Of a stretch of 64,000 nucleotides of DNA, positions 23,992-24,853 are shown one piece after another. Position numbers and translations under genes: made by a program. Origin of the DNA: Mesodorylaimus sp. YZB2_4 (taxonomy: Eukaryota; Nematoda; Enoplea; Dorylaimida; Dorylaimidae); contig JASANH010001360.1 of NCBI GenBank assembly GCA_030248295.1, positions 186,001 to 250,000 on the forward strand. Direction: 5' to 3'. The notes beneath the pieces are model-generated. The model saw only the letters and a program-made list of their open reading frames with translations. It made no database searches and was not told the DNA's origin. Each line of letters begins with the position of its first letter. Positions within the stretch are counted from its first letter, which is position 1.

Positions 23992-24853
23992 GCAATTTGG
24001 AAAAGCGTCTTGAGCTTGGACCAGGTCGAGAAGAACTCTGACTTCTTCGCGTGCGGTGCTGGATCAATGGACGTGACCAGCTATGCGAGTTGTGCGCGGC
24101 CTGCATCCCCCCGATGCACGTAGTAGCGTACGTTCGGGATGCCGATCCCGATAAAAAATGGTCGGGATTGAATGTTGTGGAGATGTGTGAAGAAGTAGAA
24201 GGGGAGAGGAAGGAAGTGTCCCCGAAGGGTAAGCTGGAAAAACTTTAGTGGATGATTGAACTGGTAAAGAGGAAGTGAGCAATTTGTTTGCTAATTGGTG
24301 ACTGATTCTAGGTCTTTTTGCTTGCCTGATTTTGAATGCCATGATAAATACTGCGCAAAAAAGTTTTTAGCTCTATATTTGCTGGCTACTTGGGGCGTGT
24401 TGTAGGTTACCTACATCGAAGTAAAAGTGAAAAAATAACACTCTAAAAATCCCGATCCCGGCCGGGATTGAGCGAATCCCGATCCCGAAAAGAGTGATCC
24501 CGAACGAACGCTAGCACGTAGTCTTTGTTTAGGATGCTGGAAGAACTGCGCCACAAGTGCCAGGTCGAGCTGGCCAACGAAGAAGTGTATATGAACCCGG
24601 CATTCGAAGACTTTGTGCGGACGGCTGTGCTGAAGAAACGGGATGGGGAAATGGGATCAAGTATGATGCCGTCAAGTTGCACGTGAATGGAATGGACATC
24701 TCCTTCCCGCATCAGCTGTTCATCAATGGGGAATTCGTTAACAGTTCCAACGGGGCTACGTACTCGACGAATAATCCCGTCGATGCATCGGTCATTAGCC
24801 AGGTACCAAAGGGAACCAAGGACGACGCGCACAAGGCTGCCATGGCTGCCAAG
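23992..24853 (+). pseudogene. Partial duplicate of ALDH1L exons 7-8, broken
   Basis: 23992-24080 matches ALDH1L exon 7 (30206-30294, same length of 89 nt) and encodes AIWKSVLSLDQVEKNSDFFA plus CGAGSMDVT, the carrier-protein segment. 24533-24853 matches exon 8 (30355-30685), encoding [20 protein letters not shown]. The donor after exon 7 has lost GT (AG|CT in place of AG|GT). Exon 8 has lost bases after KKRDG (near 24645), shifting the frame. The intervening intron carries a MITE. No copies of the other ALDH1L exons lie around it, so it is a local segmental duplication and not a retrocopy, because introns are kept. Confidence 0.85.
24124..24513. mobile_element. hAT-like MITE (390 bp) with 17-bp TIRs and 8-bp target duplication
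   Basis: Terminal inverted repeats: TAGCGTACGTTCGGGAT at 24124-24140 and its near reverse complement (16 of 17) at 24497-24513. Both are flanked by the 8-bp direct repeat GCACGTAG (24116-24123 and 24514-24521), the target duplication length of hAT elements. Subterminal CGGGAT / ATCCCG motifs recur at both ends. There is no coding frame. The paralogous ALDH1L intron at about 30336 carries one GCACGTAG and no insertion, giving an independent empty site. Confidence 0.9.

Follow-up and report, generated by a model that had tools for sequence, protein, structure and literature searches.

Hermes elements create 8-bp target site duplications (TSDs) with a preference for nTnnnnAn, end in 17-bp TIRs and carry AAGT-type repeats; the Hermes BED domain binds subterminal repeats (excerpts of PMC10368747). 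For hobo, the same nTnnnnAn preference is given as a mark of the Ac family (excerpts of PMC8961557). Buster elements, in contrast, have nnnTAnnn TSDs. The Drosophila hAT MITE family Mar belongs to the Buster type, with 8-bp TSDs and 11-bp TIRs; its authors trace the MITE to a full-length hAT element that shares its TIRs and underwent internal deletion (both in excerpts of PMC3517528).

Here we describe a hAT MITE family from the 145-Mb genome of the nematode Mesodorylaimus sp. YZB2_4, starting from one copy in a 64-kb window (the whole stretch of DNA that was analysed). The family resembles the Ac-type Hermes/hobo group in its 8-bp TSDs and nTnnnnAn preference, and Hermes in its 17-bp TIRs, its related transposase and the presence of subterminal repeats. 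These repeats are of the GATCCC/ATCCCG type, unlike the AAGT type described for Hermes, and the element ends begin with TAGCGTTCG, also unlike Hermes ends. With Mar it shares 8-bp TSDs in a MITE, but it differs from Mar in the TSD pattern and in TIR length. Three 14-base stretches of the TIR had no match in the papers searched. MITE families of the hAT type that have full-length relatives and a related empty site are already well known as a kind; the family itself is probably new.

The window element and its empty site

The element spans 390 bp of the window (24124..24513, +). A preliminary description had read it as a hAT-like MITE, and this was confirmed by its ends, its TSD, an empty site and copies elsewhere in the genome. 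As first read, the left TIR (24124..24140, +) and the right TIR (24497..24513, -) match at 16 of 17 positions. The one difference is a T to A change at position 7 of the left TIR, and the right TIR is identical to the family form. The proposed 8-bp duplication was also found, with GCACGTAG on the left (24116..24123) and on the right (24514..24521) of the element. This 8-mer occurs five times in the 64-kb window (mean chance expectation 1.23). The whole window was scanned for TIR pairs with at most one mismatch in 17, exact outer six bases, a spacing of ~100-1000 bp and an exact 8-bp TSD. The element was the sole match, and the same scan gave no matches in five windows shuffled in 500-base blocks.

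Coding potential was rejected: all open stretches in the six frames are at most 81 codons long, the longest stop-to-stop stretch measuring 81, in agreement with the earlier reading that the element holds no ORF. It is thus short and non-coding, as a MITE should be, and it has many copies whose similarity stops at the TIRs.

CGGGAT/ATCCCG repeats are found inside the left end (24135..24168, +) and ATCCCG/CGGGAT repeats inside the right end (24449..24502, +). Together the two motifs occur nine times in the element, at element positions 12-45 and 326-379, and 13 times in the remainder of the 64-kb window. The full-length relative C237, described below, has 14 occurrences, all in its first 94 or last 62 bases. 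By analogy with Hermes, these subterminal repeats may be transposase-binding sites.

The host of the MITE is a decayed exon-intron-exon fragment (23985..24868, +), whose exon pair matches 10-formyltetrahydrofolate dehydrogenase, ALDH1L (best E 1.2e-21). Its splice donor reads CT for GT at 24081-24082, and a 10-bp deletion near 24650 causes a frameshift. Besides this fragment, one other place in the genome matches the exon pair. It lies in a neighbouring, apparently complete ALDH1L gene, where sequence comparison placed the matching exons and intron at 30199..30700 (+). This copy runs on into exons for aldehyde dehydrogenase, which cover most of PF00171 (five of five stretches match), and it holds the only Formyl_trans_N match of the window (28621-29030), in which a stop inside one stretch was read as an intron.

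As had been claimed, the same intron of the neighbouring gene (30295-30354, 60 bp) contains a single GCACGTAG (30336..30343) and no insert. The filled intron (24081-24532) measures 54 bp plus 398 bp. Once the element and a single TSD are taken out, the flanks of the MITE align unbroken across the site to 30181-30760, save for a C-run. The two introns had been called paralogous; the same intron is indeed present in both copies, but the filled one belongs to a decayed fragment and not to a working paralogous gene. When frames from 27101-33300 were compared with 16001-26100 by tblastn, there were no clear further ALDH1L exons near the fragment, only weak short matches. The best of these (23636-23710, 58% over 26 aa, E 6e-6) may be a further ALDH1L exon remnant or a repeat.

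The window holds a second duplicated pair, at 16408-17402 and 26127-27115, which is 83% identical. Each member has an open frame (328 and 319 codons) that matches 7tm_1 and Srsx-type 7TM receptors. One receptor copy stands before the ALDH1L fragment and the other before the fuller ALDH1L gene, and therefore the duplicated unit may have contained both genes.

Timing of the insertion

The empty site shows that the MITE was inserted after the two introns last shared an ancestor. The preliminary description had gone further and placed the insertion after the segmental duplication, a claim that stood only in part, since that ancestor may itself postdate the duplication. Outside the shared block, the flanking introns of the two copies had no match of at least 60 bases at E 1e-8, whereas the short shared intron is ~94% identical (3 of 52 sites differ, in a count that ended at 30352, 2 bases short of the 3' boundary at 30354). 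A later gene conversion may thus set the common ancestor. Divergence is uneven in the exons as well, with 5 of 90 sites differing in the first exon and 6 of 143 and 22 of 181 in the two halves of the next one, and this unevenness between the copies suggests a gene conversion tract.

The two introns are far more alike than the adjoining ones, which suggests past sequence exchange between the copies; such exchange would also suit a different history. The insertion could predate the duplication and have disappeared cleanly from the other ALDH1L copy, either by exact excision or because an empty allele converted it. However, hAT excision usually leaves a footprint, and there is none at 30336-30343. 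Moreover, over 278 core sites the window MITE has 8 differences from its closest sibling copy, proportionally fewer than separate the two introns, and 13 from the majority sequence of the 40 copies, although all these counts are too small to rank events. We regard the older insertion as improbable and favour insertion into an intron of the fragment after the two introns had separated.

Full-length relatives and their transposase

A larger element with a hAT transposase and the same ends had been predicted, and two that carry hAT transposase sequence were found. The one on contig C237 is 2662 bp long, with a perfect TSD (ATTCAGAA) and TIRs matching at 17/17 positions; the one on contig C1061 is 2669 bp long, with a perfect TSD (GTCTATAA) and a single mismatch across its TIRs. 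They are 98% identical to each other and share their short ends with the window MITE. Copies of 609-694 bp also have the family ends.

The C237 protein has a C-terminal hAT dimerisation domain (PF05699, E 7e-15) and matches Hermes structures at E 3.6e-18 to 6e-18. In an alignment with Hermes, the acidic residues of its motifs TTDLWT, IIRDSGSN and SSEREF line up, as does the W of TRWSS, and we take these to be the Hermes-like catalytic residues. Its 676-aa stretch had no Pfam BED match at E 0.001, and by eye the frame is closed upstream by a stop. Because the C237 frame (677 codons) is closed in this way and that of C1061 spans fewer residues (489 aa), neither of the two appears to be an intact transposase source. 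Across the genome there were 94 matches to the hAT dimerisation domain, three of which, besides C237, sit in open frames of at least 600 codons; other hAT families are therefore probably also present.

8-bp TSDs, as expected of the hAT superfamily, are common to several superfamilies, and this is the one point in favour of a non-hAT element (of the P element, Merlin or Zisupton type) with hAT-like ends by chance. Such an origin is refuted, and its likelihood made very small, by full-length elements that carry hAT transposase sequence, end in the same 17 bp and have ~300 bp of 3' sequence in common with the MITE.

The hAT MITE in the window aligns with C237 in three parts. Its positions 1-29 are 89.7% identical to C237 1-29, positions 15-61 are 93.6% identical to C237 64-110, and positions 94-390 are 74.5% identical to C237 2359-2662. 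The last part (24217..24513, +) corresponds to the 3' 304 bp of C237 and includes about the last 14 codons of the transposase frame. Compared with four copies of the 622-688-bp type, the 3' part of the MITE is 67-71% identical. Since it is only ~74% identical to C237 and C1061 over the shared 3' part, its direct parent would be a relative not found here. On these alignments, the MITE is best read as an internal-deletion type derivative of such a relative, and not of C237 or C1061 themselves. The 17-bp ends are identical or nearly so across element types whose insides differ by ~25-33%, as would be expected if one kind of transposase must recognise the TIRs.

Genome copies and target sites

The expectation of many copies sharing the TIRs, with different 8-bp duplications, was borne out. 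The TIR, with up to one mismatch, occurs 785 times in the genome (392 forward and 393 reverse), and a reversed-pattern control occurs once. Searching the 145-Mb genome with the element gave at least 42 matches (40 of 637 candidates were scored), two of which are second pieces at places already listed. Among the 40 scored, the best 39 other matches are 87-94% identical, most of them near full length. These 39 places were compared with 200-bp flanks on each side. The 200-bp flanks of the window element had no likeness in any of the 39 at E 1e-3, which supports the exact element ends. A lack of other copies, similarity running past the ends and a different duplication length had been named beforehand as grounds for giving up the reading; other copies do exist, the 39 show no similarity to the window element past its ends, and the usual duplication is 8 bp.

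For TSD scoring, TIR pairs were allowed up to 4 mismatches per end and the best TSD was taken. Among the 40 copies of the 390-bp type, that in the window included, the TSD was perfect in 19 (two of them, L045 and L047, being the same insertion), had one mismatch in 13, two in one and at least four in six, and one copy lacked a TIR pair. The longer and 53-bp types (34 loci, 33 places) had 18 perfect TSDs, five with one mismatch, one with two and three with at least four; the TIR pair was absent in 7 of the 34. In total, 35 distinct perfect 8-bp TSDs came from 74 loci, the sum of these 40 and 34, in which one place enters twice.

T at position 2 or A at position 7 was found in 39 of 70 TSD positions (p 3.8e-7 against an expectation of 27%), and T4/A5, in 27 of 70, was mildly raised (p 0.02). 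Both T2 and A7 are present in 10 of the 35 TSDs and at least one of them in 29, the TSD of the window element fitting at position 7 only. The target preference of the family is nTnnnnAn, the Ac-type pattern, rather than nnnTAnnn. A repeat-rich chance structure that is no transposon at all, an idea that the repeated CGGGAT/ATCCCG units in the ends might invite, has a negligible probability and is refuted by the 785 TIR matches against one in the control and by the 35 distinct perfect TSDs.

Three pairs of MITE copies were compared and are alike including their flanks: L019/L024 (95.6%), L030/L036 (87.8%) and L045/L047 (99.9% over whole 781-bp stretches, one insertion present twice). These are insertions copied together with their surroundings, an order of events opposite to that in the window. 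At L011 (G000 C117:332252-333370), a second, partial family match, 67% identical and in opposite orientation, lies ~60 bp from a full copy.

Two copies at different sites are only 53 bp long, barely longer than both TIRs together. One (L111 1501-1553, G000 C3:1775581-1775633) has a perfect TSD, GCTCTGAG/GCTCTGAG; the other (L112 1501-1553, G000 C59:241372-241424) matches at 7 of 8 positions, CATTTGGG/CATTAGGG. They are the only places in the genome where exact TIRs have 0-30 bases between them, and the C59 form had no other genome match at up to 3 mismatches. The plainer reading is that they are probably deletions between 5' and 3' GATCCC repeats inside longer copies. That they moved at this size is unlikely, though not far-fetched; if they did, they would, to our knowledge, rank with the shortest mobile hAT elements.

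Proposed origin and significance

The window element is almost certainly a miniature non-autonomous hAT transposon, which a transposase acting in trans probably inserted at GCACGTAG in the intron of the ALDH1L fragment. In the proposed sequence of events, a full-length hAT element would have lost most of its interior and kept the TIRs, the GATCCC-type subterminal repeats and ~300 bp of its 3' end. The ends of the MITE may then have been bound, and the MITE cut out, by a Hermes-like hAT transposase produced elsewhere in the genome. An 8-bp stagger on insertion into the intron of the truncated ALDH1L copy would have produced the duplication, and the other ALDH1L copy would have retained the uninterrupted site.

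The window MITE leaves the general picture unchanged. It is a clean annotation case, in which the ends are proved by an empty site, by copy number and by full-length relatives in one genome. With its kept ends and divergent insides, the family lends itself to studying which end sequences are required by a hAT transposase. If the 53-bp copies did move at that size, two 17-bp ends and a few GATCCC repeats would suffice for hAT mobility.
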